Shown: positions 46,822-63,072 of the stretch, piece after piece | Layout: every line of letters starts with the position of its first letter | Numbering within the stretch: position 1 is the first letter of the stretch | Source: Rubrivirga sp. SAORIC476 | GTDB lineage: Bacteria > Bacteroidota > Rhodothermia > Rhodothermales > Rubricoccaceae | Direction: 5' to 3' | Length of the DNA stretch: 64,000 nucleotides | Assembly (NCBI RefSeq): GCF_002283555.1 | Contig: NZ_MVOI01000003.1 | Span: 270,536-334,535 of the forward strand | Translations under genes and position numbers: made by a program | Notes under the pieces: generated by a model | Seen by the model: only the letters and a program-made list of their open reading frames with translations | What the model was told of the DNA's origin: nothing | Database searches by the model: none

Positions 46822-47265
46822 GTGCTCCCCCTCTTCCGCCGTCTCCGTCTGCCCGTCGCCCTGGTGGCCCTCGCGATCCTCGCCGGGCCCACTGCCGGGG
46901 CCGTGTGCCTGCATGCGATGGCGGGGACGATGGACCACGGCGAGACGGCTCCCGCGATGCCGATGGAGCACGCGGGCGACTCGGAGACGCCGCCGTGCCA
47001 CGAGACACCGGAGGCCCCGCCGCCGACGCACTCCAGCCACGACGCACCGCAGGGCGACTGCGCGTCTCCGTGCTGCACGGCCCAGGCGCCCGCTCCCGAG
47101 ACCACGCCCCCGGCGCTCGCGGGGTCGTCCGTGGCTGTCCCCGCCCCGACACCGGTGGACGCGGAGCCGGTCCGCCACCTGACGGCGGAGCGGGTCGAGA
47201 CCGTGTGGTCTCCCCCACCGCGCCCGACCCGTCTGCATGCGGAGTTGCAACGGTTTCTGATCTGA
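46822..47265 (+). CDS. Cys/His-rich secreted protein at head of the copper locus
   Basis: A GTG at 46822 gives 147 residues. An N-terminal hydrophobic signal is followed by metal-like clusters: 'CLHAMAGTMDHGETAPAMPM', 'CHETPEAPPPTHSSHDAP' and 'GDCASPCC'. Met, His and Cys dominate. It resembles the small periplasmic proteins that precede copper-export genes in other Rhodothermota/Bacteroidota, but no exact family is claimed. It is divergent from the isoaspartyl peptidase gene; the promoter lies in the 45-bp gap. Confidence 0.78.
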   Translation: MLPLFRRLRLPVALVALAILAGPTAGAVCLHAMAGTMDHGETAPAMPMEHAGDSETPPCHETPEAPPPTHSSHDAPQGDCASPCCTAQAPAPETTPPALAGSSVAVPAPTPVDAEPVRHLTAERVETVWSPPPRPTRLHAELQRFLI

Positions 47266-47396
47266 GAGGCTGCGGGCGCCTGAGTGCGTCCGCTCGCGCC
47301 GCGTGTGCGGTGTGACGATGGCCGTCCGGACCCGCCGGTCCGGCCCACCGACATGCAGAGCCCGAGGTCCGGGCCTGCGCCTCTCCGATCTCCCTG
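47266..47396. other. Spacer with hairpin, 47320-47345
   Basis: CCGGAC and GTCCGG arms of GGCCGTCCGGA/GGTCCGGCC (47320-47345) lie in the 131-bp gap. It could be a terminator or regulatory stem; no T-tract. Confidence 0.35.
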
Positions 47397-48155
47397 ATGC
47401 TCCGCTTTCTGCCCGCGCTCGGCCTGTTGGCCGGGTGCGTCGCCCCCGTCGCCACTGTGTCCGGCGGCCCCGCCTCGGCGTCCGCGCCGACCACCCCCCT
47501 GGCGGTCTCGGCCGCCCCCCTCGCGCCCGTCGAGGCGCCCGATCTTCCCGCCGCGCTCCGCCCGTCCGACCCGACCCACTCCGGCATGGAGATGGATCAC
47601 GCCGGCATGGAGATGAACCACTCCAGCATGGAGATGAACCACTCCGGCATGGAGAGGGACCACTCCGAAGTGGACGACGCGCCGATCCGGCCCGTCCTCG
47701 ACGCCTACCTCGTCCTGCACGACGCGCTCGTGGCGGACCGTCTCGCGCCGGATGCCGCCCAGGCTCTCGCTGCGGCGCTCGCCATCTGGACCGAGACGCC
47801 GCCTCCCGGCGACGCGCACTTCTGGCACCTGCGTGCCACCGACGTGAGTGCCCTCCGTCGGGCGGCCGATGCCCTCGCCGAGGCGGCCGGTCTCGACGCG
47901 GCCCGCGCGGCGTTCGGTGCCCTCAGCGTTCCGTTCGCATCGCTCGTCGAGGCCCACGGCGTCCCCGAGGGCTACGACCTCGCGCGGTTTACCTGCGGCA
48001 TGGCTGACGCGCCTGAAGGAGGGGTGTGGCTCCAGCCCGCAGGCGACACCGCCAACCCGTACTTCGGAGCCTCGATGGCTACCTGCGGACGCGAAGACGC
48101 GCCGACGGAGCCCGCCCTGCACCATCGATCGATGAACCACGGGGGGACACGATGA
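47397..48155 (+). CDS. Copper-type lipoprotein: Met/His-rich linker and DUF3347 (CusB-like) domain
   Basis: 252 residues with a lipobox (GLLAGC, Cys14). Residues about 60-90 hold four consecutive 'HSGMEM-DHAGMEM'-type units with alternating Met and His, typical copper-binding repeats. The C-terminal 150 residues have the DUF3347 pattern, ending with 'FTCGMADAPEGGVWLQPAGD' and 'NPYFGASMATCG', whose Cys pair and NPYFG motif occur in CusB/CzcB-like adaptors. It lacks the biotinyl-lipoyl adaptor domains, so it is not a full adaptor. Its stop overlaps the next start (ATGA at 48152). Confidence 0.85.
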   Translation: MLRFLPALGLLAGCVAPVATVSGGPASASAPTTPLAVSAAPLAPVEAPDLPAALRPSDPTHSGMEMDHAGMEMNHSSMEMNHSGMERDHSEVDDAPIRPVLDAYLVLHDALVADRLAPDAAQALAAALAIWTETPPPGDAHFWHLRATDVSALRRAADALAEAAGLDAARAAFGALSVPFASLVEAHGVPEGYDLARFTCGMADAPEGGVWLQPAGDTANPYFGASMATCGREDAPTEPALHHRSMNHGGTR

Positions 48156-49612
48156 CTGGACGTCTCCCTCTTCTCGCCCTCGTACTCGTCGGCCTGTCCG
48201 GCTGCACGGCCGTCCGTCCGCAAGCGGCGTTCGGGGACGTGCAGGCGACCGTCGCCGAGCGGGCCGACCTGCGAGCCGTCTGGGTGACAGGCACCGCCGA
48301 GGACGCCGCGGCCCGCGCCGCCGTCGACTCGCTGCTCACTGACAGCCTCACGGCCGACGTGGCCGTCCAGGTCGCGCTCCTCAACAACCGCCGCCTCCAG
48401 GCGACCTACGAGGATCTCGGCGTGGCGCAGGCGATGCTCGTCCAGGCCGGGCTGCTGTCGAATCCCGTCTTCGGGGCCCGCGGTCTGTGGCCTGCCGAGG
48501 GCGGCGCGCCCGACCTGGGGCTGTCGGTCGCGTTCGACTTCCTCGACGTGTTCGCACGCCCGCTCCGGCAGCGGGTCGCCCGGAGCGAGTACGCCGCCGC
48601 ACAGGCCCGCGTCGCCGGGGCTGTGCTGGACCTCGCAGCACAGACGCGCACAGCCGCGATCCGCGCCCAGGCAGACGCCGCGCGGCTGGCCATGCAGGTG
48701 CGGGTGGTCGCCAACGCTGAGGCCGGGTATACCGCCGCGAGGCTCCTCCGGGAGGCCGGCAACGTGCCCGCGGTGGACCTCCTCGCCGAGCAGGCGCTCT
48801 ACGAGCAGGCCCGCCTCGACCTTCTGGTGGCCGAAGGCGCGGCGGCCGAGAGCCGCGAGGCGCTGATCCGCAGGATGGGCCTGAGCGGCCCCCAGGCCGT
48901 GATCCCGCTCCGGGCGACCCTCCCGGCGGTCCCGGCCGAGAGTCCGCTGCCGTTCGTCCGTACCTCCACTGAGGCGGGTGTGCCCGGCGCCGCCGTCGAC
49001 GCCGAGGCGATCGAGCGTGCCGCCGTGGCTGCCAGCCTGGACCTGGACGCGCGCCGAGCCGACATCGAGGCCGCCGCCCGGCGCCTCGGCCTCACCGACG
49101 TGGAGGCCCTCGTCCCGACGCTCCACGCGGGCGCCGAACTCGAACGCACCGACGGCGAGTGGGAGGCCGGGCCCGACGTCGAGGTGGCGCTCCCGCTCTT
49201 CGATCAGGGGCAGGCTCGCCGCGCCGCCGGGTACGCCGAGTTGCGGCGCGCCCAGGCCCTCTACGAGGCCGACGCTGTCGACCTCCGCTCCACTGCGCGG
49301 ACCCTCGCGACCCGCCTCGCGACCGCGCGCCGCGCGGCGCTCCACTACCAGACGACGGTCCTCCCGCTCCGCGCCGAGGTCGCCGCCCAGACTCTCCGCC
49401 AGTACAACGCCATGCAGACGGGCGTCTTCGGCGTGCTCCAGGCCCAGCAGGCCGAGGCCGAAGCCGCGCGCCGCTACTTCGACGCGCTCGCCGCCTATTG
49501 GGTGGCCCGGACTGACCTCGACCTGCTCCTCCAGGGCCGGATGCCCTCGCTCGACGGTGGCGCGCTCGCCCGTGCCAACGCGCCCTCTTCCGTGCCCCCC
49601 GCCGCCCACTGA
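48152..49612 (+). CDS. TolC-family outer-membrane efflux lipoprotein (CusC-like)
   Basis: The ATG at 48152 overlaps the previous stop. 486 residues with a lipobox (GLSGC, Cys18). Two long coiled-coil halves of TolC type are visible ('NNRRLQATYEDLGVAQAMLV', 'TTVLPLRAEVAAQTLRQYNA'). It forms outer-membrane channels with an RND or other pump; no pump lies in this cluster. The DUF3347 lipoprotein before it suggests copper or silver efflux. Confidence 0.9.
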   Translation: MTGRLPLLALVLVGLSGCTAVRPQAAFGDVQATVAERADLRAVWVTGTAEDAAARAAVDSLLTDSLTADVAVQVALLNNRRLQATYEDLGVAQAMLVQAGLLSNPVFGARGLWPAEGGAPDLGLSVAFDFLDVFARPLRQRVARSEYAAAQARVAGAVLDLAAQTRTAAIRAQADAARLAMQVRVVANAEAGYTAARLLREAGNVPAVDLLAEQALYEQARLDLLVAEGAAAESREALIRRMGLSGPQAVIPLRATLPAVPAESPLPFVRTSTEAGVPGAAVDAEAIERAAVAASLDLDARRADIEAAARRLGLTDVEALVPTLHAGAELERTDGEWEAGPDVEVALPLFDQGQARRAAGYAELRRAQALYEADAVDLRSTARTLATRLATARRAALHYQTTVLPLRAEVAAQTLRQYNAMQTGVFGVLQAQQAEAEAARRYFDALAAYWVARTDLDLLLQGRMPSLDGGALARANAPSSVPPAAH

Positions 49613-49614
49613 CC

Positions 49615-51051
49615 ATGTCCACCTACACTCGCCGCGACTGGATGAAGGCCAGCGCCGTCGCCCTGGGCGGCGCCGCAGTCGGCCGCGCGTCCCGCGCCAC
49701 CCCGCTGCCCGTCACCTGGGACCCCGTCGCTGCCGCCGACTCGATCGCCGCCGACTCCGTCGCTGCCGCAAACGTGGCCGCGACGACCCCCGACTCGCTC
49801 CCCGCCCTGGCTCCCCCGACCTCGGCCCCGGGGCAGGCACGGCGCCGCTCGCTGGCGACGCCCGTCGACGGGGACCGGCCCAACCGCGTTGATACACCCA
49901 ACGGCTCCGCGCTGACCGGCCGCCAGGCGGACGACGGCGCCTGGGTCTACCACCTCACCGCCGAGGAGGTCGAGCACGCGTTCGCGCCGGGCCTCACCGC
50001 CACCTGCTGGGGCTACAACGGCCAGGTCCACGGCCCGACCTTGGAGGCCGTCGAGGGTGACCGCGTCCGCATCTACGTGACCAACCGCCTCGGCGTCGCC
50101 ACGACCGTCCACTGGCACGGCGTCTTCCTCCCGAGCGGCATGGACGGCGTCGGCGGGCTGAGCCAGGCGCCCATCGCACCCGGTGAGACGTTCCTCTACG
50201 AGTTCCCGATCACGCAGAGCGGAACGTTCATGTACCACTCGCACCACGACGAGATGACCCAGATCGCGCTGGGCCTGACGGGCATGTTCGTCGTCCACCC
50301 GAGGCGGGGGGCCGACGTGGATCGCGACGTCGCCTTCATGCTCCACGAGTGGCTCGTGGAACCCGGCACGAGCCGACCGGACCCGAACGCGATGTCGGAC
50401 TTCAACGTCCTCACCATGAACGCGCGCGCGTTCCCCGGCACCGACCCCATCGTCGTCGGCCACAACGACCGGGTCCGGTTTCGCTTCGGCAACCTCTCGC
50501 CGATGGATCACCACCCGATCCACCTCCACGGGCACTACTGGACGATCGTCGGCACCGACGGCGGCGCGATCCCGGCGGCCGGGCGGTGGCCCGAGACGAC
50601 GGTCCTCGTCCCCACCGGCAGCACGCGTACCGTCGAGTGGACCGCCGACGCGCTCGGCGACTGGGCCATGCACTGCCACATGACGCACCACGTCATGAAC
50701 CAGATGGGCCACGGCACCCCCAACATGGTCGGCGTCGACGCCCGCGCCCTCGACCGGTCGGTCCAGCCGCTCGCGCCCGGGTACATGGCGATGGGCGAGA
50801 ACGGCATGGACGAGCACGGCTCGCACGTCGAGCAGGGCCACATGCCGGTCCCCGAGAACTCGATCCCGATGGTCGGCGCCGCCGGACCGTTCGGCTACAT
50901 CACCATGGGCGGCATGTACACCAACGTCAAGGTTCGCCCGAAGCCCGTGGACGTGACCGCCGACCCTGGCTGGTACGACCACCCTGCGGGCACCGTCGCC
51001 CGCGCGGTTTCCGCCGAGCAGGCCGCTCGCGACGGCGTCCGCCTCACCTGA
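49615..51051 (+). CDS. Multicopper oxidase, Tat-exported
   Basis: 478 residues. A twin-arginine signal (TRRDWMKASAVALGG) directs folded export. The four copper motifs are visible: HWHG and HSHHDE in the first domain, HPIHLHGHYW and HCHMTHHVMNQM (T1 site) in the last. It oxidises Cu(I) to Cu(II) or other metals/phenols in the periplasm, protecting against toxic Cu(I). It begins 2 bp after the TolC stop. A long Ala/Asp/Ser linker precedes domain 1. Its length suits a two/three-domain periplasmic oxidase rather than CopA with Met-rich insert, although Met/His-rich stretches occur near 370-420. Confidence 0.93.
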   Translation: MSTYTRRDWMKASAVALGGAAVGRASRATPLPVTWDPVAAADSIAADSVAAANVAATTPDSLPALAPPTSAPGQARRRSLATPVDGDRPNRVDTPNGSALTGRQADDGAWVYHLTAEEVEHAFAPGLTATCWGYNGQVHGPTLEAVEGDRVRIYVTNRLGVATTVHWHGVFLPSGMDGVGGLSQAPIAPGETFLYEFPITQSGTFMYHSHHDEMTQIALGLTGMFVVHPRRGADVDRDVAFMLHEWLVEPGTSRPDPNAMSDFNVLTMNARAFPGTDPIVVGHNDRVRFRFGNLSPMDHHPIHLHGHYWTIVGTDGGAIPAAGRWPETTVLVPTGSTRTVEWTADALGDWAMHCHMTHHVMNQMGHGTPNMVGVDARALDRSVQPLAPGYMAMGENGMDEHGSHVEQGHMPVPENSIPMVGAAGPFGYITMGGMYTNVKVRPKPVDVTADPGWYDHPAGTVARAVSAEQAARDGVRLT

Positions 51052-51148
51052 TCTCGCCCTCCTGCGGCTGCTGGAGGCGCCGCGAGGACTCGAACGTGTC
51101 CCGCGGCGCCTCGTCTGGCGGCAGGCTCCCCCTCACCTCCCTGCTCCC

Positions 51149-51601
51149 ATGAAGCCCTCCTATCTCCGCTTCTTTGCGATGATCGCCACCTCGACCCTGG
51201 TGATGCTCGCGCTCATGTACTCGACCGTCTATAGCCTCGACCACATCTGGTGGAGCCAGACGAAGGCCTGGATGGCGCTCTACATGGGCGCCGCGATGGC
51301 CGTGGTCATGCTGGCCTTCATGCTCGGCATGTACACCGACCCGAAGAAGAACCTCGCCATCGTTGTCGGCAGCGTGGTTGTGTTCGCCGCCAGCTTCTAC
51401 CTCGTCCGCGCCCAGACGACCGTGGACGACGTGGCGTGGATGAAGGCGATGATCCCGCACCATTCGATCGCGATCCTGACGAGCGAGCGCGCCCAGATCT
51501 CCGACCCGCGTGTCCGCGCGCTGGCCGATGGCATCATTGAGGCCCAGCGGCGCGAAATCGCCGAGATGGAAGCCCTCATCGACAGTCTGGAGGCGCGGTA
51601 G
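51149..51601 (+). CDS. DUF305 membrane protein
   Basis: 150 residues with three N-terminal membrane helices (about 8-30, 42-62, 70-88). The short C-terminal part carries the DUF305 block 'WMKAMIPHHSIAILTSERA' with the HH metal-like pair. DUF305 proteins often sit in copper or metal resistance loci; the mechanism is unknown. It starts 97 bp after the oxidase. Confidence 0.88.
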   Translation: MKPSYLRFFAMIATSTLVMLALMYSTVYSLDHIWWSQTKAWMALYMGAAMAVVMLAFMLGMYTDPKKNLAIVVGSVVVFAASFYLVRAQTTVDDVAWMKAMIPHHSIAILTSERAQISDPRVRALADGIIEAQRREIAEMEALIDSLEAR

Positions 51602-51641
51602 GCCGCCGCGCGCGGCACGATGCGATCTTCCCGAAGAGCCC

Positions 51642-51676
51642 CGCCTCGCCGACGCCCTCTCGAACCCTGCGAGGCG
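51642..51676. terminator. Palindromic element CGCCTCGC ... GCGAGGCG
   Basis: Eight-bp perfect arms at 51642-51649 and 51669-51676, 40 bp after a stop codon. It is a variant of the CCTCGG family. Confidence 0.5.
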
Positions 51677-51690
51677 CCCCGCGTCCCACG

Positions 51691-51697
51691 TACGACA
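51691..51697 (+). promoter_or_regulatory. TAnnnT element (TACGACA) before small lipoprotein
   Basis: It lies 15 bp before the ATG at 51713, after the palindromic element, with a pyrimidine-rich leader. The fit to TAnnTT is partial. Confidence 0.25.
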
Positions 51698-51712
51698 CTT
51701 CCCCGCCCACCG

Positions 51713-51976
51713 ATGTCTCTCCGCTCGACCGCCCTGCTCGCCCTCGTCGCCCTCGCCGGCTGCCAGTGGTCGGGCCGCCCCGATGGCGCCTCCGCCAACC
51801 ACTCCAACCGCGACGGGTACTCCGACGATGCGCTCGGCTCGCCCCTCCAGGGCACCGAGGCCGAGGTCGTCGTCCCGCTGGGCGAGCCGCTCCCCGCGCC
51901 CGCCGTGACCGAGACGCCCGACGCCATGACGGCCCCCGCCGAGGACGCCGCCCCCGAGACCGCCACCGACCAGTAA
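51713..51976 (+). CDS. Small lipoprotein in copper locus, function unknown
   Basis: The ATG at 51713 gives 87 residues with a lipobox (VALAGC, Cys17). The mature part is Pro/Ala/Glu-rich and disordered-looking ('NHSNRDGYSDDALGSPLQG'). No family recognised. It ends 5 bp before the DUF411 gene. Confidence 0.7.
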   Translation: MSLRSTALLALVALAGCQWSGRPDGASANHSNRDGYSDDALGSPLQGTEAEVVVPLGEPLPAPAVTETPDAMTAPAEDAAPETATDQ

Positions 51977-51981
51977 TCCCC

Positions 51982-52512
51982 ATGCGCTTCCTCCTCCTGC
52001 TCCCACTGCTCGCCCTCACCGCCTGCCAGCTGACCGACTCGTCGGCCGCGCCGTCGGACCCTGCCGCCGCCCCCGCTGCGGAGCCCGTGGTCGTCCAGAC
52101 CGCCGCGCTCGTCGGCCCCGACGCGCCGACGCTGACGGTATACAAGAGCCCCACGTGCGGCTGCTGCTCGATGTGGGTCGAGCACATGGAGGCCGCGGGC
52201 TTCCAGGTCGAGGCCGTCGACCGCGACGACATGGCTGCAGTCAAGGACAGCCTCGGCCTCCCCTCCGACCTCTCGTCGTGCCACACGGGCGTGATCGACG
52301 GCTACGTGATCGAGGGCCACGTGCCCGCCGAGCAGGTCGCGCGCCTGATCGAAGAGAAGCCCGAGGCGCTGGGCCTGGCCGTCCCCGGCATGCCGATCGG
52401 CTCGCCGGGCATGGAACAGGGCGACCGCCGCGACGCGTACGACGTGCTCGTGGTCGGCTCGGGGGGCGAGGCGGCGGTCTACACACACATCGAAGGCAAC
52501 ACGCAGCCGTAG
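51982..52512 (+). CDS. DUF411 metal-binding lipoprotein
   Basis: 176 residues with a lipobox (LTAC, Cys15). The DUF411 core opens 'LTVYKSPTCGCCSMWVEHME' with the CGCC motif, and continues 'DLSSCHTGVIDGYVIEGHVP' with a second Cys-His and the final 'GLAVPGMPIGSPGME'. DUF411 proteins are associated with copper (or other metal) handling in resistance operons. This copy is a lipoprotein and thus periplasmic/outer-membrane anchored. Confidence 0.9.
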   Translation: MRFLLLLPLLALTACQLTDSSAAPSDPAAAPAAEPVVVQTAALVGPDAPTLTVYKSPTCGCCSMWVEHMEAAGFQVEAVDRDDMAAVKDSLGLPSDLSSCHTGVIDGYVIEGHVPAEQVARLIEEKPEALGLAVPGMPIGSPGMEQGDRRDAYDVLVVGSGGEAAVYTHIEGNTQP

Positions 52513-52543
52513 GCGTGCGTCGGGGCACGGCGTAGACTGCGCC

Positions 52544-53740
52544 ATGCCCCGACGCCTCCTCCTACTGGTCGCCACCGCGCTCGCGGCCTGCGGCGACGCT
52601 CCGCCCCCCGACGCTCCCGCCAAGGCGATCCCACTCGTCGACGGTGCGGTCGACGTCCCCGCCGACACCGGGGCCGTCGCCCCCCGCCTCGTCACGGACG
52701 CCGAGGGCCGCCCGGTGCTCACGTGGGTCGAGCCCACCGCGACCGGCCACGCGCTCCGCCTCTCCCGGTGGACCGGCGACGGGTGGTCCCCCGCCGACAC
52801 CCGCGCCGAGGGCGCCGACTGGTTCGTCAACTGGGCCGACACGCCGGGGGTGGTGCCCCGCAGCGACGGGCTGATGCTCGCCCACACGCTCGTCATGCAC
52901 CCGGACGGCGGCGTCTACGCCTATGACATCGGTGTCGAGATGCCGAACGGCACTGGGGCCTTGCTCAACACGGATGGGGTCGCGGCCGAGCACGGGTTCG
53001 TGTCCGGCGTCCCGCTCGCCGACGCGCGGACGGCCCTTGTCTGGCTCGACGGTCGCGAGCAGGGGGAAGGCCACGGCCACCACGCGGGCGCGATGACCCT
53101 CCGCACGGCCACCCTGTCCGCCGACGGCACGCGGAGCGGCGAGGCCGTCCTGGACGAGCGCACCTGCGACTGCTGCCCGACGACCGCCGTCGCCACGCCA
53201 TCTGGCCTCGTCGTCGCCTACCGCGACCGGAGTGAGGACGAGATCCGCGACATCGCCGTCGTCCGTCAGGTCAATGGCGCGTGGACTGCGCCCACCATCC
53301 CCCATGCCGACGGCTGGCGCATCGAAGGCTGCCCCGTCAACGGCCCCGCACTGGCCGCCTCGGGCGACCGCGTGGCGCTGGCGTGGTTCACCGGCGGCGA
53401 CGCGACGCGCGTCTGGCTGGCCGTCTCCGAAGACGCCGGAGCGACCTGGGGCGAGCGCGTCCGCATCGACGGCGGGGCACCCATCGGCCGCGTCGGCGTG
53501 TCGATGCTGGCGGACGGCAGCGCGACGGTGAGCTGGCTGGAGGGCGTCGGCGAGGCCGCCGAGCTTCGCGTTCGCCGCGTCGGCAGCGACGGGTCGCTGC
53601 GCCCCGCCGTGACCGTGGCGACGGTCGACAGCGGACGGGCGAGCGGGGTCCCGCAGATCGTGGCCCTCGGCGACCAGGCGCTCGTGGCGTGGACCGATCC
53701 TGCCGCCGGGACGGTGCGCTCGGCTGTGGTGACGCCGTAG
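52544..53740 (+). CDS. Beta-propeller (BNR/sialidase-like) lipoprotein with CDCC motif
   Basis: 398 residues with a lipobox (ALAAC, Cys16). The chain is a repeat of beta-propeller blades with Trp/Gly/Asp turns: 'APRLVTDAEGRPVLTWVEP', 'VSEDAGATWGERVRID' (Asp-box). The 'DERTCDCCPTTAV' segment holds three Cys that could bind a metal. No sialidase catalytic set is apparent. It is downstream of DUF411 on the same strand, in the copper locus. Confidence 0.82.
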   Translation: MPRRLLLLVATALAACGDAPPPDAPAKAIPLVDGAVDVPADTGAVAPRLVTDAEGRPVLTWVEPTATGHALRLSRWTGDGWSPADTRAEGADWFVNWADTPGVVPRSDGLMLAHTLVMHPDGGVYAYDIGVEMPNGTGALLNTDGVAAEHGFVSGVPLADARTALVWLDGREQGEGHGHHAGAMTLRTATLSADGTRSGEAVLDERTCDCCPTTAVATPSGLVVAYRDRSEDEIRDIAVVRQVNGAWTAPTIPHADGWRIEGCPVNGPALAASGDRVALAWFTGGDATRVWLAVSEDAGATWGERVRIDGGAPIGRVGVSMLADGSATVSWLEGVGEAAELRVRRVGSDGSLRPAVTVATVDSGRASGVPQIVALGDQALVAWTDPAAGTVRSAVVTP

Positions 53741-53796
53741 CAGAGGAATCCTCGACCGGGGGACCGGGCGTAGACCCGATCCCCGCCTTCCCCGTC

Positions 53797-54210
53797 ATGC
53801 TCGCCGTGGGTCTGCTCGTTCCCAACTGGCCCGTGCTGAGTTTCCTGCTCGGCGTCGTCCTCGCGCTCGTCTACGTCCGCCTCGGTCGGCGGCTGCGGGG
53901 GCGCAACGCCCGGGTGTGGTGGGCGGCCGGGCTCGTGGCCGCGGCGGCCCTGTACGTCGTGTTCGCGCTCGCTCGCGGCGACGTGGCCGGCGCCGCGCTG
54001 GAGATGATCGGCGTGACGCTGGTGGGCGTGGCGGTGCGGATGGGGCTCCGCGGCGACCTCCGCTGGCTCGCGGCCGGATGGCTGCTGCACCCGCTCTGGG
54101 ACCTCGGCGTCCACCCGCCGCTGGAGGCGCCGCCGCTCTACGTCTGGCTCTGCCTCTCGTTCGACGCCGTCGTCGGGATCGCGCTCTACCTCCAGGCCGT
54201 CCGCAACTGA
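53797..54210 (+). CDS. Membrane protein (DUF6010-like)
   Basis: The ATG at 53797 gives 137 residues with four hydrophobic helices. The C-terminal 'WLAAGWLLHPLWDLGVHPP' (His-rich) is characteristic of DUF6010-type proteins, whose function is unknown. It follows the propeller gene by 56 bp. Confidence 0.65.
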   Translation: MLAVGLLVPNWPVLSFLLGVVLALVYVRLGRRLRGRNARVWWAAGLVAAAALYVVFALARGDVAGAALEMIGVTLVGVAVRMGLRGDLRWLAAGWLLHPLWDLGVHPPLEAPPLYVWLCLSFDAVVGIALYLQAVRN

Positions 54211-54232
54211 CACCCCTCTCCTTCCCTCCCTC

Positions 54233-54622
54233 ATGGCCGACTACACCTTCTCCCGCACCCTCGACGCCGACCTCGCGACCGCCGAGGCGCGCACCCGCGC
54301 CGCGCTCTCCGACGAGGGCTTCGGCGTCCTCACCGAGATCGACATCCAGGCCACCATGAAGGCCAAGCTGGACGCCGACGTGACGGGCTACACCATCCTG
54401 GGCGCCTGCAACCCGCCGCTCGCGTTCCAGGCGATGCAGGCCGAGCCGCGCATCGGCGCGATGCTGCCGTGCAACGTCATCCTGCGCGACGTGGGCGACG
54501 GGCAGACGGAGGTCTCGGCCATCGACCCGGTCGCCAGCATGGCCGCCATCGACAACGCCGACCTGGGGACCGTCGCCACCGAGGTCCGCGAGCGGCTCCA
54601 GCGCGTCGTCGCGGCGCTCTAG
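54233..54622 (+). CDS. DUF302 family protein
   Basis: 129 residues, soluble. The DUF302 core is clear: 'EGFGVLTEIDIQATMKAKLD', 'YTILGACNPPLAFQAMQAEP', 'GAMLPCNVILRDVGDG' and 'EVSAIDPVASMAAIDN'. Function of the family is unknown. It ends 4 bp before the enoyl reductase-like gene, so those two are likely co-transcribed. Confidence 0.92.
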   Translation: MADYTFSRTLDADLATAEARTRAALSDEGFGVLTEIDIQATMKAKLDADVTGYTILGACNPPLAFQAMQAEPRIGAMLPCNVILRDVGDGQTEVSAIDPVASMAAIDNADLGTVATEVRERLQRVVAAL

Positions 54623-54626
54623 GCCG

Positions 54627-55607
54627 ATGCGCGCGCTCCGCTTTCACCGCCACGGCCCGCCCGCCGAGGTCCTCCGCCTCGACGACGTACCGACGCCCGA
54701 GCCCGGCCCCGGCGAGGTCCGCCTCCGGCTCACGCACCGCCCCCTCCACCCGGCCGACCTCTCGATGGTGCGCGGCACCTACGGCCGCTCGCGCGACCTG
54801 CCCGCCGTCGGCGGCAACGAGGGGTTCGGCGTCATCGACGCCGTCGGCGAGGGCGTGGCCGATCTCGCCGTCGGGCAGCGCGCGATCAAGCTCGGCGAGG
54901 CGCCGACGTGGCAGGAGGCCGTCGTGCTCCCCGAGGCCGACGTGTTCGCGGTCCCGGACGCGCTCTCGGACACCGACGCGGCCCAGCTCTTCGTCAACCC
55001 GCTGACGGCGTGGCTGCTGCACGGGGCCGCCCCGCCCCGCCTCGGCGACGTGCTGGTGCAGACCGCGGGCGCGAGCGCCGTCGCCCGGATCGCGGCCCAG
55101 ATGGCGGTCCGCGCCGGCGCCCGCGCGGTGTCCATCGTCCGCCGGGACGACCACCGAGACCGCCTCGAAGCCCTCGGCGTCCATGTCGTCGTGGCCGACG
55201 CGAACACGTCGGAGACACGGGCCGCACTCCGCGAGGCCGTCGGCGCGGACGGCGCGGCGGCGGTGTTCGACCCCGTCGCGGGCGAGGTCGGCGCGCTGGC
55301 CCTGTCGGCCCTGCGAGACGGCGGCACGCACATCGTCTACGGCGCGCTGAGCGGCGAGCCGCTGCCCGTCTCCCCGGCCGCGCTCATCTACCGGGACGTG
55401 ACGGTCCGCGGCGTCTGGCGCACCCAGTGGGCCTCTCGCGCTCCCTCCGACACGATCCACGACACCCTCCGGGTCCTCACCGCCTTCGCCGTCGCGGGCG
55501 CCTACACGCTCCCGGTGGACGCGACCTACGACCTCGGCGACGCCACCGAGGCGGTCGGCGCCGCCCTGGCGCACGGCCGCTGGGGCAAGGTGCTGCTGAC
55601 CGGGTGA
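54627..55607 (+). CDS. MDR-superfamily enoyl reductase / quinone oxidoreductase-like protein
   Basis: 326 residues. The N-terminal catalytic-like domain has 'THRPLHPADLSMVRGTYG' and 'AVGGNEGFGVIDAVGEGV', the entry of MECR/2-enoyl thioester reductases; the Rossmann domain has 'VLVQTAGASAVARIAAQMA'. It uses NADPH to reduce enoyl thioesters or quinones and lacks the zinc-binding residues of true alcohol dehydrogenases. It is 4 bp from DUF302 and convergent with the ATP-grasp gene. Confidence 0.9.
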   Translation: MRALRFHRHGPPAEVLRLDDVPTPEPGPGEVRLRLTHRPLHPADLSMVRGTYGRSRDLPAVGGNEGFGVIDAVGEGVADLAVGQRAIKLGEAPTWQEAVVLPEADVFAVPDALSDTDAAQLFVNPLTAWLLHGAAPPRLGDVLVQTAGASAVARIAAQMAVRAGARAVSIVRRDDHRDRLEALGVHVVVADANTSETRAALREAVGADGAAAVFDPVAGEVGALALSALRDGGTHIVYGALSGEPLPVSPAALIYRDVTVRGVWRTQWASRAPSDTIHDTLRVLTAFAVAGAYTLPVDATYDLGDATEAVGAALAHGRWGKVLLTG

Positions 55608-58740: not shown

Positions 58741-59880
58741 GTGGCGCTCACTCGCCCTCAGAAAACCGCCCTCTGGACCGGCGTCGGCCTGCTGGCCGTC
58801 GCCCTGCTCCTTTTGCCCCGCTTCGTCGGCGGCGACGCCGAGGCGGAGCCGACCGCGGACGCGCCGCGCGGCGCCGACACGCTGACGGTGACCGTCGCCC
58901 CGGTGTCGATGGAGTTGCTGGAGGACCGCGTCACGACGACCGGCACGCTGCTGCCCTGGGAGGCCGTCGAGGTGCGTGCCGAGGTGGCGGGCCGCGTGAC
59001 CGCGATCAACTTCTCGGAAGGCTCGGCGGTGGGCCAGGGCCAGACGCTCGTCTCGCTCGACGCGGAGGTGCTGCGGGCGCAGATCGAGGGCGCTCGGGCG
59101 CGGCGTGACCTCGCGGGCGTGCAGGCCCGGCGCTACCGGGAGCTGTTCGAGATCGGCGGGCTGAGCCGACAGGAGCTGGACCAGGCCGAGAGCGAGGCGC
59201 GCGTGCTGGACGCCGAGCTGGCCCAACTGGCCGCCGAGGTGCGCCGTCGGCAGGTGGTGGCGCCCTTTGCGGGCCAGATCGGGCTCCGGCAGGTCAGCGT
59301 CGGCGCGTACGTCGCCCCCGGCGACCCCATCGCGACGCTCCGCGTGACCGGCCAGCTCCGGCTGGAGTTCACCGTCCCGGAGCGCTACCTCGGTCAGATC
59401 CGCACCGGCTCGCCGGTCCGCTTCCGCGTCCCCGGCCAGGAGGACGACTTCGTGGCCACGGTCTATGCCACCGAGCCCAACGTGGACGCCGCCACGCGGG
59501 CCTTCACCGTCCGAGCGCGGGTCCGCAACCCCGGCGGGGTCCTGGTGCCGGGCGCCTTCGCCGAGGTGGCCCTCGTGCTGGACGAGATCCTCGAGGCGCT
59601 GCTCGTCCCGACCGCCGCCCTCATCACGGGGGCGGACAGCACGACCGTCTTCGTCGTCCGCGACGGCACCGCCGTTCCGCGCGCCGTGACGACCGGCGTC
59701 CGCACGGCCGACCGGATCCAGGTCACGAGCGGCCTCACCCCGGACGACGTGGTGCTCACGTCGGGCCTCAACCAGGTCCGCCCCGGCCAGGCCATCCGCA
59801 CCGGCGGCGCCTTCGACCCGACGCAGGTGCGCCCCGCGAGCACGGCGCCCGAGGGCCGCGCCTACCAGACGGCCGACTAG
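58741..59880 (+). CDS. RND efflux periplasmic adaptor (membrane fusion protein, HlyD family)
   Basis: A GTG at 58741 gives 379 residues. An N-terminal membrane anchor (about 10-28) is followed by the adaptor domains: biotinyl-lipoyl 'RAEVAGRVTAINFSEGSAVG', the alpha-hairpin (about 105-165), 'VVAPFAGQIGLRQVSVGAYV' and the beta-barrel/MP region. It links the inner-membrane pump to TolC. The RND pump starts directly after its stop. Confidence 0.93.
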   Translation: MALTRPQKTALWTGVGLLAVALLLLPRFVGGDAEAEPTADAPRGADTLTVTVAPVSMELLEDRVTTTGTLLPWEAVEVRAEVAGRVTAINFSEGSAVGQGQTLVSLDAEVLRAQIEGARARRDLAGVQARRYRELFEIGGLSRQELDQAESEARVLDAELAQLAAEVRRRQVVAPFAGQIGLRQVSVGAYVAPGDPIATLRVTGQLRLEFTVPERYLGQIRTGSPVRFRVPGQEDDFVATVYATEPNVDAATRAFTVRARVRNPGGVLVPGAFAEVALVLDEILEALLVPTAALITGADSTTVFVVRDGTAVPRAVTTGVRTADRIQVTSGLTPDDVVLTSGLNQVRPGQAIRTGGAFDPTQVRPASTAPEGRAYQTAD

Positions 59881-62800
59881 ATGGCCTCGCTCTACGACGT
59901 CTCGGTCCGCCGCCCCGTCTTCGCGACGGTGATGTCGCTGACGATCCTGATCGGCGGGGTGATCGGGTACCAGCGGCTGGGCGTGCGCGAGTACCCGATC
60001 GTCGAGACGCCGGTGATCTCGGTGTCGACGAGCCTGCGCGGTGCCAACGCGGCCGTCATCGAGAGCCAGGTGACCGAGCCCATCGAGGAGTCGGTCAACG
60101 CCATCGACGGCATCCGGTCGATCACGAGCACGAGCAACGAGGGCCGGAGCACGGTGCGCGTCGAGTTCGACCTCGGCGCCGACCTGGACCGGGCCGCGGC
60201 CGACGTGCGCGACCGCGTGTCCCGCGCCCGCGGCCGGATCCCGGACGAGGCCGAGGAGCCCGTCATCTCGAAGTCCAACTCGGACGGCCAGCCGGTCGTC
60301 TTCCTCAACCTGTCGTCCGAGCAGTACGACCTGCTGGAGCTGTCGGAGATCGCGGACAACTTCTTCGCCGAGCGCCTCCAGACGATCGACGGCGTCGCCT
60401 CGGTCGACATCTGGGGCGACAAGCGCTACGCGATGCGGATGTGGATCGACCCGGCGGCGCTGGCGGCTTACGGACTCACGCCGGGCGACGTGCAGCGGGC
60501 CGTCCAGGAGCAGAACGTCGAGCTGCCCGGCGGGCGCATTGAGGGAGACCAGGTGGAGCTGACCATCCGCCCGCTCACGCGGCTCTCGACCGTCGAGGAG
60601 TTCGAAAACCTGATCTTGAAGAACGACGGCACGTCGCTCGTGCGGTTCTCCGACGTGGGGCGCGTCGAGTTGGCCGCGCAGAACCAGCGGACGGTCCTCA
60701 AGCGCGACGGCGTCGCGATGGTGGGCGTCGTCCTCCGTCCCCTCGCCGACGCCAACGCCATCGACATTGTCGACGAGTTCTACCGGCGCGTGGACGACAT
60801 CAAGGAGGACCTGCCGCCGGGCATCGAGATGGGCATCGGGTTCGACAACACCGAACCCATCCGAGCATCCATCGAGGAGGTCCGCGAGACGATCCTGATC
60901 GCGCTCGCCCTGGTCATCCTCGTCATCTTCGGCTTCCTGCGCGACTGGCGGACGACCCTCGTGCCGGTGGTCGTCATTCCGGTGTCGCTCGTGGGCGCCT
61001 TCGGCGTGATGGCGCTGGCCGGCTTCTCGATCAACGTGCTGACGCTGCTGGCGCTCGTGCTCGCCATCGGCCTCGTCGTGGACGACGCGATCGTGGTGCT
61101 GGAGAACATCTACGCCAAGATCGAGGACGGCATGGACCCGCTCCAGGCGGCCGTGGTGGGCACCAAGGAGATCTACATCGCCGTCATCGCGACGACGCTC
61201 GCGCTGGTGGCCGTCTTCCTGCCCATCATCTTCCAGAGCGGCGTGATCGGGGCGCTCTTCCGCGAGTTCGGGCTGACCATCGCGGCGGCGGTCGTGATCT
61301 CGTCGTTCGCCGCGCTCACGCTCACGCCGATGCTCTCGTCGAAGCTGCTCAAGCGGCGCGAGACGAAGCCGTGGCTCTACCGCAAGACGGAGCCCTTCTT
61401 CGAGCGGACCAACGACGCCTACCGCCGGACGCTGAGCGCCTTTCTGCGCGTCCGCTGGATGGCATTCGTGGTGATGGCGGTGGCGAGCGTCGGCGTGTGG
61501 TGGCTGTTCTCGAACCTGGAGAGCGAGCTGGCGCCCGCCGAGGACCGGTCGCAGATCCGCCTGTTCGCCAACGCGCCCCAGGGCCGCGGCTACGCCTACA
61601 TGGACGCCTACACCGACGAGCTGATCGCGCTGATCCAGCGCGAGGTGCCCGAGGTGGAGGCGCTCATCTCGGTCACGTCGCCGGGCTTCGGGTCGTCGGG
61701 CTCGGTCAACTCGGCGTTCGCCAACCTCATCCTGGTGCCGCCGGACGAGCGGGAGCGAAGCCAGGACGACATCGCCAACGGCCTCCAGCGCGCCCTCGGC
61801 TCGCTGCCCGGCGCGCGCGTCAATGCGAGCCAGCCGGCGACCATCTCGACCTCGTCCGGCCGGGGCTCGCCGGTGCAGCTCGTGATTCAGGCGCCCAACC
61901 TGGTCGCTCTGCAGGACGCGCTCCCGGCCTTCCTGGAGGCCGCGGGCCAGGACCCCGCCTTCCAGTTCGTCCGCGCCGACCTGGAGTTCACGCTGCCCGA
62001 GTTGCAGATCGAGGTCGACCGCGACCGGGCGCAGGCGCTCGGGATCGCGCCGCTCGACGTGGCGCAGGCCCTCTCCGTCGCCCTCAGCGAGGGCCGCTAT
62101 GGCTACTTCAACCGCAACGGCGAGCAGTACGAGATCATCGGCCAGCTGGAGCGCGAGGCGCGCGACACGCCGAACGCGCTGCAGGGGCTGTACGTCCGCA
62201 GCGCCGCCGGGCAGCCGATCCCTCTGTCCAACCTCGTCACGCTGACCGAGTCGGCCGCGCCGCCGCAGCTCTACCGCTTCAACCGGTTCACGGCCGCGAC
62301 GGTCTCGGCCGAGCCCGCCGAGGGCGTCTCGCTGGGCGACGCCATCGACGCGATGGAGGCCGTCGCACGCGAGACGCTGCCGGTCGGCTTCTCGACCGCG
62401 CTGGACGGGCAGAGCCGCGACTTCCGGGAGTCAGGGGGCTCCATCCTGGTCGTCTTCGGGCTGGCGCTCGTGCTGATCTACCTCGTGCTGGCGGCCCAGT
62501 TCGAGAGCTTCCGCGACCCGATCACGATCCTGCTGACGGTCCCGCTGGCACTGCTCGGTGCGCTCGGCGCGCTGTGGGTGTTCGGGAGCACGCTCAACGT
62601 GTTCAGCCAGATCGGGCTCGTGATGCTGATCGGGCTCGTGACTAAAAACGGCATCCTGATCGTCGAGTTCGCCAAGCAGAAGCGAGAGGAGGGCATGGGC
62701 CGCCAGCAGGCCGCCGAGGAGGCATCGGCGGCGCGCTTCCGCCCGATCCTGATGACGGCCTTCTCGACCGTCCTCGGCACGCTCCCTATCGCGCTGGCGC

Positions 62801-63072
62801 TGGGCGCGGGCGCCGAGAGCCGCGTCCCGATGGGGCTGGCGGTAATCGGCGGCCTCGTGGTGGGCACGTTCCTGACGCTCTACGTCATCCCGGCGCTGTA
62901 CACGTTCATCGCGAGCAAGGAGGTCGGGGTGGTCCCGCTGTCCGTCGCCGGCGACGGCGCGACGACGGCCATCCCCGAGCGGCCCGTCCGCCTCGGTCCC
63001 GAGACGGGCGGAGACGGGAGCGAGGCGGAGGCGCCCGCCGCGCTCATCGAACCCGACCGGGACGCCTCGTGA
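59881..63072 (+). CDS. RND multidrug efflux permease (HAE1/AcrB-type)
   Basis: 1063 residues with the twelve-helix, two large periplasmic loop architecture. The proton-relay pair is seen in 'AIGLVVDDAIVVLENIYAKI' (Asp-Asp of helix 4). Other RND landmarks: 'RRPVFATVMSLTILIGGVIGY' (10-30), 'GALGALWVFGSTLNVFSQIG' and 'GLVTKNGILIVEFAKQKREE'. It exports hydrophobic drugs or detergents with H+ antiport; the substrate is unknown. Its stop overlaps the start of the TolC gene. Confidence 0.96.
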   Translation: MASLYDVSVRRPVFATVMSLTILIGGVIGYQRLGVREYPIVETPVISVSTSLRGANAAVIESQVTEPIEESVNAIDGIRSITSTSNEGRSTVRVEFDLGADLDRAAADVRDRVSRARGRIPDEAEEPVISKSNSDGQPVVFLNLSSEQYDLLELSEIADNFFAERLQTIDGVASVDIWGDKRYAMRMWIDPAALAAYGLTPGDVQRAVQEQNVELPGGRIEGDQVELTIRPLTRLSTVEEFENLILKNDGTSLVRFSDVGRVELAAQNQRTVLKRDGVAMVGVVLRPLADANAIDIVDEFYRRVDDIKEDLPPGIEMGIGFDNTEPIRASIEEVRETILIALALVILVIFGFLRDWRTTLVPVVVIPVSLVGAFGVMALAGFSINVLTLLALVLAIGLVVDDAIVVLENIYAKIEDGMDPLQAAVVGTKEIYIAVIATTLALVAVFLPIIFQSGVIGALFREFGLTIAAAVVISSFAALTLTPMLSSKLLKRRETKPWLYRKTEPFFERTNDAYRRTLSAFLRVRWMAFVVMAVASVGVWWLFSNLESELAPAEDRSQIRLFANAPQGRGYAYMDAYTDELIALIQREVPEVEALISVTSPGFGSSGSVNSAFANLILVPPDERERSQDDIANGLQRALGSLPGARVNASQPATISTSSGRGSPVQLVIQAPNLVALQDALPAFLEAAGQDPAFQFVRADLEFTLPELQIEVDRDRAQALGIAPLDVAQALSVALSEGRYGYFNRNGEQYEIIGQLEREARDTPNALQGLYVRSAAGQPIPLSNLVTLTESAAPPQLYRFNRFTAATVSAEPAEGVSLGDAIDAMEAVARETLPVGFSTALDGQSRDFRESGGSILVVFGLALVLIYLVLAAQFESFRDPITILLTVPLALLGALGALWVFGSTLNVFSQIGLVMLIGLVTKNGILIVEFAKQKREEGMGRQQAAEEASAARFRPILMTAFSTVLGTLPIALALGAGAESRVPMGLAVIGGLVVGTFLTLYVIPALYTFIASKEVGVVPLSVAGDGATTAIPERPVRLGPETGGDGSEAEAPAALIEPDRDAS

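Follow-up and report, generated by a model that had tools for sequence, protein, structure and literature searches.

A probable copper-resistance gene cluster of Rubrivirga sp. SAORIC476 in which a TolC-family protein accompanies a two-domain multicopper oxidase

We analyzed a 64,000-nucleotide stretch of the genome of Rubrivirga sp. SAORIC476 (hereafter, the window; contig NZ_MVOI01000003.1, positions 270,536 to 334,535) and found ten genes, g1 to g10, on the + strand at 46822-54622. These genes probably make up a copper-resistance cluster that would detoxify the cell envelope by oxidation, by binding, and by release through a dedicated channel. By analogy, the cluster would work like the Pco/Cop systems, with a TolC-family protein in the place of PcoB. 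The general kind of system, an oxidase with an outer-membrane exit, is known; the variant is probably the use of a dedicated clade of TolC proteins as the exit, together with a CutF-like leader and a covarying RNA. Channels of the TolC family are regarded as components of pumps. Here, a TolC clade tracks a soluble oxidase in at least six phyla, and pump genes are often missing from the neighborhood, which makes it possible to test directly if TolC can be a copper exit in its own right, the role that has been proposed for PcoB/CopB. The features of the cluster are (aa, amino acids):

g1, 46822..47265, + strand: putative CutF/CopL-like exported leader of 147 aa, with a hydrophobic N-terminus, C80-ASP-C84-C85 (CxxxCC), and a C-terminal SPPPRP...LQRFLI
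RNA element, 47259..47390, + strand: predicted closing helix around four hairpins, spanning the stop codon of g1
g2, 47397..48155, + strand: DUF3347 lipoprotein (PF11827, 26.5 bits, cut-off 25.5) with lipobox LAGC, MDHxGMEM repeats, and an NPYFG..M..CG motif
g3, 48152..49612, + strand: TolC/OEP lipoprotein (PF02321, 90 bits) with lipobox LSGC
g4, 49615..51051, + strand: two-domain multicopper oxidase of 478 aa (Cu-oxidase_3, PF07732, and Cu-oxidase_2, PF07731) with a Tat-like N-terminal signal
g5, 51149..51601, + strand: DUF305 protein (PF03713, 41 bits) whose C-terminal half, after hydrophobic segments, is CopM-like (NCBIfam CopM, 41.8 bits, below the cut-off)
g6, 51713..51976, + strand: small lipoprotein of 87 aa, identified by pattern only, with lipobox LAGC
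g7, 51982..52512, + strand: DUF411/CopG lipoprotein (PF04214, 93 bits; PDB 6wis, E 2.7e-38) with a CGCC motif
g8, 52544..53740, + strand: CDCC propeller lipoprotein, called "sialidase family protein" in plasmid annotation
g9, 53797..54210, + strand: DUF6010 membrane protein (PF19473, 34.3 bits, cut-off 27.3)
g10, 54233..54622, + strand: DUF302 protein without a signal peptide (PF03625, 88 bits)

There is a 4-nucleotide (nt) overlap between g2 and g3 and a gap of 2 nt between g3 and g4; farther downstream, neighboring genes are separated by 5 to 111 nt. Such spacing is compatible with one transcription unit. An earlier note on this DNA had named most of these families from the sequence alone, and all that it named are found at the place and on the strand that it gave, by Pfam, NCBIfam, pattern, or fold evidence. 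Its count of eight or nine genes was too low, as it had overlooked the DUF6010 gene (g9).

The case for a dedicated channel comes from the linkage of g3 to g4. We compared 95 loci with a gene for a close relative of g4. In 89 of them, a TolC gene adjoins this oxidase gene; the other six are mostly on contigs whose break is no more than about 300 nt upstream of it. The loci span at least six phyla and include Myxococcota, α-, β-, and γ-Proteobacteria, Planctomycetota, Poribacteria, Lentisphaerota, a Chlamydiota plasmid, and Rhodothermota. The order of the two genes is reversed in some Myxococcota. In a maximum-likelihood tree of TolC proteins, in which the "paired" labels were assigned from domain coordinates, a branch with 100/99 support separates all of the sampled oxidase-paired TolCs from the rest, and this split is present in 100% of the bootstrap trees. 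On the opposite side are the TolCs encoded elsewhere in the same loci, as well as the TolC that is beside the CusA of this genome. Furthermore, 12 of 99 related genomes contain a match to g3, and 11 of those 12 also encode a close relative of the oxidase. The twelfth has the leader-DUF3347-TolC part of the cluster, on a contig that stops straight after the TolC gene. The TolC and the oxidase are a co-inherited unit, and the TolC lineage of g3 has been passed on with the oxidase. Because this TolC is found only where the oxidase is found (one broken contig apart) and because it belongs to a separate clade, we consider it to be a dedicated channel.

The pair is visible in existing annotations: many plasmids have a "TolC family protein" beside a "copper oxidase," and on proteobacterial plasmids, other copper proteins are encoded nearby. 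In the open papers that we searched, we did not find a description of the TolC-oxidase pair as a unit, nor did we find literature on the combination of DUF411, DUF305, and a multicopper oxidase. Judging from titles and abstracts, there was no relevant literature on DUF3347 or DUF302. In a Tn5 study of Bradyrhizobium, tolC and copA were hit in separate mutants, and the identity of these genes with the pair described here could not be shown (PMC5057107).

The arrangement around the pair varies. The DUF3347 gene is upstream of the TolC-oxidase pair in Rubricoccaceae and Poribacteria. In some proteobacterial loci, a tiny exported protein is encoded between the leader and TolC, which is the place of DUF3347 here (L142:6149-6391, L179:2568-2789, L143:2994-3311, and L141:6088-6381; L numbers denote sampled loci). 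This tiny protein has a YRGPTGPRDW-like motif in two Roseobacter loci and a looser version in the others. Also, L105 and L108, from Pyxidicoccus and Myxococcus, each contain two convergent TolC-oxidase pairs that face each other in one locus.

The g4 oxidase has two cupredoxin domains and the full set of type 1, type 2, and type 3 copper ligands: among 94 homologs, the HWH, HSH, HxxHLH, and HCH..M motifs are at or near 100% conserved. About a dozen methionines are also conserved in the family, and several of these are in the C-terminal part. The best match to g4 among structures in PDB is the two-domain laccase 2zwn. The two proteins share the fold and the order of the domains, while a long linker and the methionine-rich C-terminal part are specific to the g4 family.

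To describe the relatives, we label the related genomes G001 and so on; this genome is G000, and C3 and C7 are two of its contigs. The earlier note's reading as a copper locus is supported, and the locus is conserved in relatives: all ten families are found together in G003, eight of the ten are found in G004, and the TolC-oxidase core is found in 11 of the 99 related genomes. The conservation of gene order in the relatives is far above chance. Homologs of g6 and g9 are also present in G003, and G002 has a g6-DUF411 pair that is away from its oxidase gene. In G007, the cluster is split: leader-DUF3347-TolC-oxidase is with DUF305 on one contig, and a separate leader-DUF411-propeller-DUF302-ATPase module is on another. 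The gene set is modular rather than one fixed unit. DUF411 and DUF302 are widespread (92/99 and 37/99 relatives, respectively), so we view them as general partners and not as markers of the TolC-oxidase system.

A scan with Pfam and NCBIfam profiles did not identify any RND permease, adaptor, or ATPase gene within 46822-54622. The earlier note had described a locus without a pump, which holds for this interval but not as a property of the system, since a copper ATPase homolog adjoins the DUF302 gene in four relatives (G001, G003, G007, and G008). The ATPase that directly follows DUF302 in G003 is of the CopA type (TIGR01511, 588 bits), those of G001 and G007 are in the same position, and the order in G008 is ATPase-DUF302-propeller. 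This genome encodes CopA-type ATPases elsewhere, at C3:1.487 Mb and on C7, as well as a CusA/CzcA permease at C7:37460-40789. For the inner membrane at least, the lack of a pump gene seems to be an accidental feature of how this genome is arranged. We also surveyed 50 long loci from the wider family: within about 10 kb, 19 encode a copper ATPase and 11 an RND permease, and 24 have no copper ATPase, RND permease, or adaptor. Given the association with ATPases in relatives and the copper ATPases and CusA in this genome, copper is likely to be the metal of the cluster.

The first gene of the cluster, g1, is probably a copper-sensing leader similar to CutF and CopL, rather than a copper sponge. 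Both CutF and CopL are small peptides that belong to the DUF2946 group and are exported. CutF detects copper in the periplasm as the peptide is exported, and it controls the translation of the next gene via an RNA stem-loop (PMC9973294). Like these leaders, g1 is short (under about 150 aa), contains a cysteine motif (CASPCC), and is followed by a gene on the same strand (g2, 131 nt downstream). We judged by eye that its N-terminus is hydrophobic. In an alignment of four versions of g1 from Rubricoccaceae, the cysteines of the CxxxCC motif, the PPP, and the C-terminal RFL are invariant, while the middle of the protein is variable. The earlier note had listed g1 as a Cys/His-rich secreted protein within a supposed oxidize-and-sequester system. 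The conserved CxxxCC, the PPP...RFL end, and the precedent of CutF favor a regulatory leader instead (PMC9973294).

Poribacteria, Planctomycetota, Kordiimonas, and proteobacterial plasmids have similar short open reading frames upstream of TolC, some with weak matches to DUF2946/CopL. When we used a regular expression to search for CutF-like open reading frames, those upstream of TolC were mildly enriched (6.9% versus 2.8% of open reading frames). Because the enrichment is modest and these cases were judged by eye, we suggest only that there may be leaders outside of the Rubricoccaceae.

The RNA between g1 and g2 is predicted to form a long closed structure. In the closing helix, 47259-47262 and 47264-47270 would pair with 47379-47385 and 47387-47390. 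The helix would involve the last codons and the stop codon of g1, enclose four hairpins, and end 6 nt before the start codon of g2. The region 3' of the g1 stop codon folds better than shuffled sequence (z of -3.7). In a second comparison, the z scores for the window and three relatives were -3.1, -3.6, -1.9, and -2.2, against a background mean of -0.3, although a few of the background windows scored equally low. The same closing helix can be formed in G003, G004, G002, and G006, with bases changed on both sides of the helix in several of these. The combined p value for the helix was about 1e-5 relative to shuffled partners and about 2e-4 relative to genomic segments; G001 could not be included in this test. 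When we aligned the intergenic region with MAFFT and folded it with RNAalifold, the consensus was poor (covariation term of +0.69) because the sequences of the hairpins differ too much, so we relied on individual folds and the controlled helix test in place of consensus folding. By analogy to CutF, the RNA element and the leader probably place g2 and the genes after it under the control of copper. This would make the locus a testable case, outside of the Proteobacteria, of a nascent exported peptide that senses copper, with a covarying RNA.

Another protein in the cluster, the propeller g8, appears to belong to a family that is misannotated as sialidase and that recurs in copper gene clusters. 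It has no match in Pfam above the cut-offs, including to the sialidase and BNR families. The AlphaFold2 model of g8 has a propeller fold (predicted local distance difference test, pLDDT, of 87) and resembles PLL lectins and sialidases at about 10-16% identity. We rejected the annotation as a sialidase because of this low identity to sialidase structures and the lack of a Pfam match. What distinguishes g8 from these propellers of the same overall fold is a set of invariant features: in 22-25 homologs of g8, the residues C208, C210, C211 (CxCC), C263, and H150 are invariant, as are the motifs WLDGR and GCPVNGP. The family is present in 50 of 198 genomes sampled across the phylum, and it is also found on Roseobacter plasmids. 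On two of these plasmids, from a lineage that is distant from Rhodothermota, the propeller is encoded a few genes after the TolC-oxidase pair. The propeller gene is directly after a gene for a redoxin/TlpA-like lipoprotein in 5 of 20 loci sampled across the phylum. In these Bacteroidota loci (L184, L185, L190, L194, and L201), the two genes overlap or nearly do, and several of the loci are inside copper islands. Here, g8 follows CopG (g7), which is itself thioredoxin-like: g7 has a DUF411 domain, the CGCC motif, and a thioredoxin-like fold match to 6wis. A copper-thiol role is a natural guess for g8, and its recurrence supplies a copper gene context for a widespread family.

How might these parts work together? 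As g1 is exported, it would sense periplasmic copper, and slowing at its C-terminal proline motif would leave the ribosome on the g1 stop codon. The paused ribosome would open the closing helix so that g2, g3, and g4 are translated, by the same logic as for CutF. The conserved ligands of g4 suggest that it would oxidize Cu(I) to Cu(II) with oxygen. The DUF3347 lipoprotein, CopG, DUF305, and the CDCC propeller may bind copper and hand it on, with CopG and the propeller doing so via their cysteine clusters. Copper would then leave across the outer membrane through g3, in the place of PcoB/CopB. Copper from the cytoplasm would be exported by the CopA-type ATPases, whose genes adjoin the cluster in some relatives and are at other sites in this genome. 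The periplasmic oxidase and the outer-membrane channel agree with the oxidize-and-sequester system, feeding a channel, that the earlier note had imagined; a sequestering role for g1 is not supported. We are doubtful about the strongest version of this scheme, in which a TolC lineage that co-evolved with the oxidase releases copper without any RND, ABC, or MFS pump, the CDCC propeller helps as a second CxCC copper protein, and a copper-sensing nascent leader and a long closed RNA are in control.

The cluster combines features of several known systems. In Pco/Cop, a periplasmic multicopper oxidase is encoded with an outer-membrane protein that is thought to release copper (PMC7558416), and both kinds of protein are encoded in one cluster here as well. 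In contrast to Pco/Cop, g4 scores just 158.6 bits against CopA (TIGR01480, cut-off 478.95), while an oxidase on C7 of the same genome reaches 732 bits; g3 is a TolC instead of PcoB/CopB, with OEP (PF02321) as its sole Pfam match; and no match to CopC or CopD was obtained for any of the ten proteins. In the CutFOG system of Rhodobacter capsulatus (CutF leader, CutO oxidase, and CutG, which is CopG), one cluster likewise combines an exported leader with cysteines and C-terminal prolines, a stem-loop RNA, an oxidase, and DUF411 (PMC9973294, PMC8456105). Compared to CutFOG, the controlled unit here is longer and begins with the DUF3347 lipoprotein and TolC, the oxidase has two domains, the RNA, of about 130 nt, has a closing helix around four hairpins, and there is no clear Shine-Dalgarno sequence before g2. 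The plasmid-borne pairs of Proteobacteria and Chlamydiota share the core, often behind a DUF2946/CopL-like leader, but their partners are plastocyanin, CusF, cytochrome c, or CopC/CopD, instead of the DUF3347, DUF305, DUF6010, and DUF302 found here. With CusCFBA, the cluster shares an outer-membrane channel of the OEP family and the copper context; a further putative link is the DUF3347 domain of g2, which the earlier note associates with the tails of CusB. Unlike in CusCFBA, there is no CusA or CusB in the cluster, and g3 is in a different clade than the CusA-linked TolC of the same genome.

This raises the alternative that g3 is the outer-membrane part of an RND pump that is encoded elsewhere, so that the cluster would be part of a scattered Cus system. 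TolC-family channels normally dock with adaptors, and there are two candidate pumps in the genome: the CusA/CzcA permease on C7, and an adaptor and RND permease at 58741-63072 (+ strand), about 4 kb after DUF302, with the RND gene beginning at 59881. The earlier note had suggested looking for a distant CusAB that could use g3; the permease on C7 has its own TolC close by, outside of the oxidase-paired clade. The downstream pump scores as the multidrug HAE type and not as the CusA type. Also, the paired TolC follows the oxidase across phyla, and an RND permease is near only those 11 of the 50 long loci. We consider a scattered Cus system to be unlikely. It is much less likely still that the cluster mainly delivers copper to cuproenzymes, such as oxidases or nitrous oxide reductase, instead of removing it. 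CopG and thioredoxin-fold proteins have been proposed to be copper carriers (PMC7558416), and delivery could explain the placement of the propeller beside TlpA/redoxin-like proteins, but the link to copper ATPases in relatives, the methionine-rich oxidase, the TolC channel, and carriage on plasmids beside resistance genes all argue for resistance.

A further alternative concerns only the leader step: g1 might bind copper in the periplasm without regulating anything, and the hairpins might be a terminator or simply the structure of a GC-rich intergenic region. In favor of this, Cys, His, and Met all occur in g1, the GC content of the region is very high, folding is equally good in some random windows, and the related CutF was itself initially regarded as a copper-supply protein (PMC8456105). 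This explanation does not account for the strict conservation of the CxxxCC and PPP...RFL in an otherwise variable protein, nor for the compensatory changes in the closing helix, and the leader is the first gene in both of the split modules of G007. With the experimental precedent of CutF as well (PMC9973294), we think that it is rather improbable that g1 is just a binding protein.

Several observations weigh against a resistance cluster that is controlled by a leader. We know of no biochemistry for DUF302, DUF6010, g6, or the propeller; the presence of DUF411 is weak evidence, as most of the relatives have it; and the confidence in the AlphaFold2 model of g4 is moderate (pLDDT of 69), with the methionine-rich tail unresolved. 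As a CopL, g1 scores 20.3 bits (NCBIfam NF033807, E of 7e-4), below the cut-off of 40, so we call it "CutF/CopL-like" and do not claim membership in CopL. Its PPPRP is at residues 131-135 of 147, which puts the PP on the edge of the published 15-residue window. As for the RNA, the closing helix is missing from G007, it is not significant in G002 or G007 when each is taken alone, and its 5' strand lies partly within a coding region.

There is a second copper region in this genome, on C7 at about 37-49 kb and 82-88 kb (L132 and L134), which encodes the CusA/CzcA permease, a TolC, a copper ATPase, and DUF305. It also contains a gene for a short CC...PPPGPRR peptide, another CutF-like candidate, and further on, a three-domain CopA oxidase with DUF302. 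More broadly, a different multicopper oxidase is encoded next to DUF302 in about ten genomes (among them G010, G015, G024, G035, G044, G056, G061, and C7 of G000), which supports a putative copper role for DUF302. Finally, a gene that by eye is quinone-oxidoreductase-like (54627-55607, + strand) begins 4 nt past DUF302, at the position of the copper ATPase in the relatives, and is possibly co-transcribed with the cluster.

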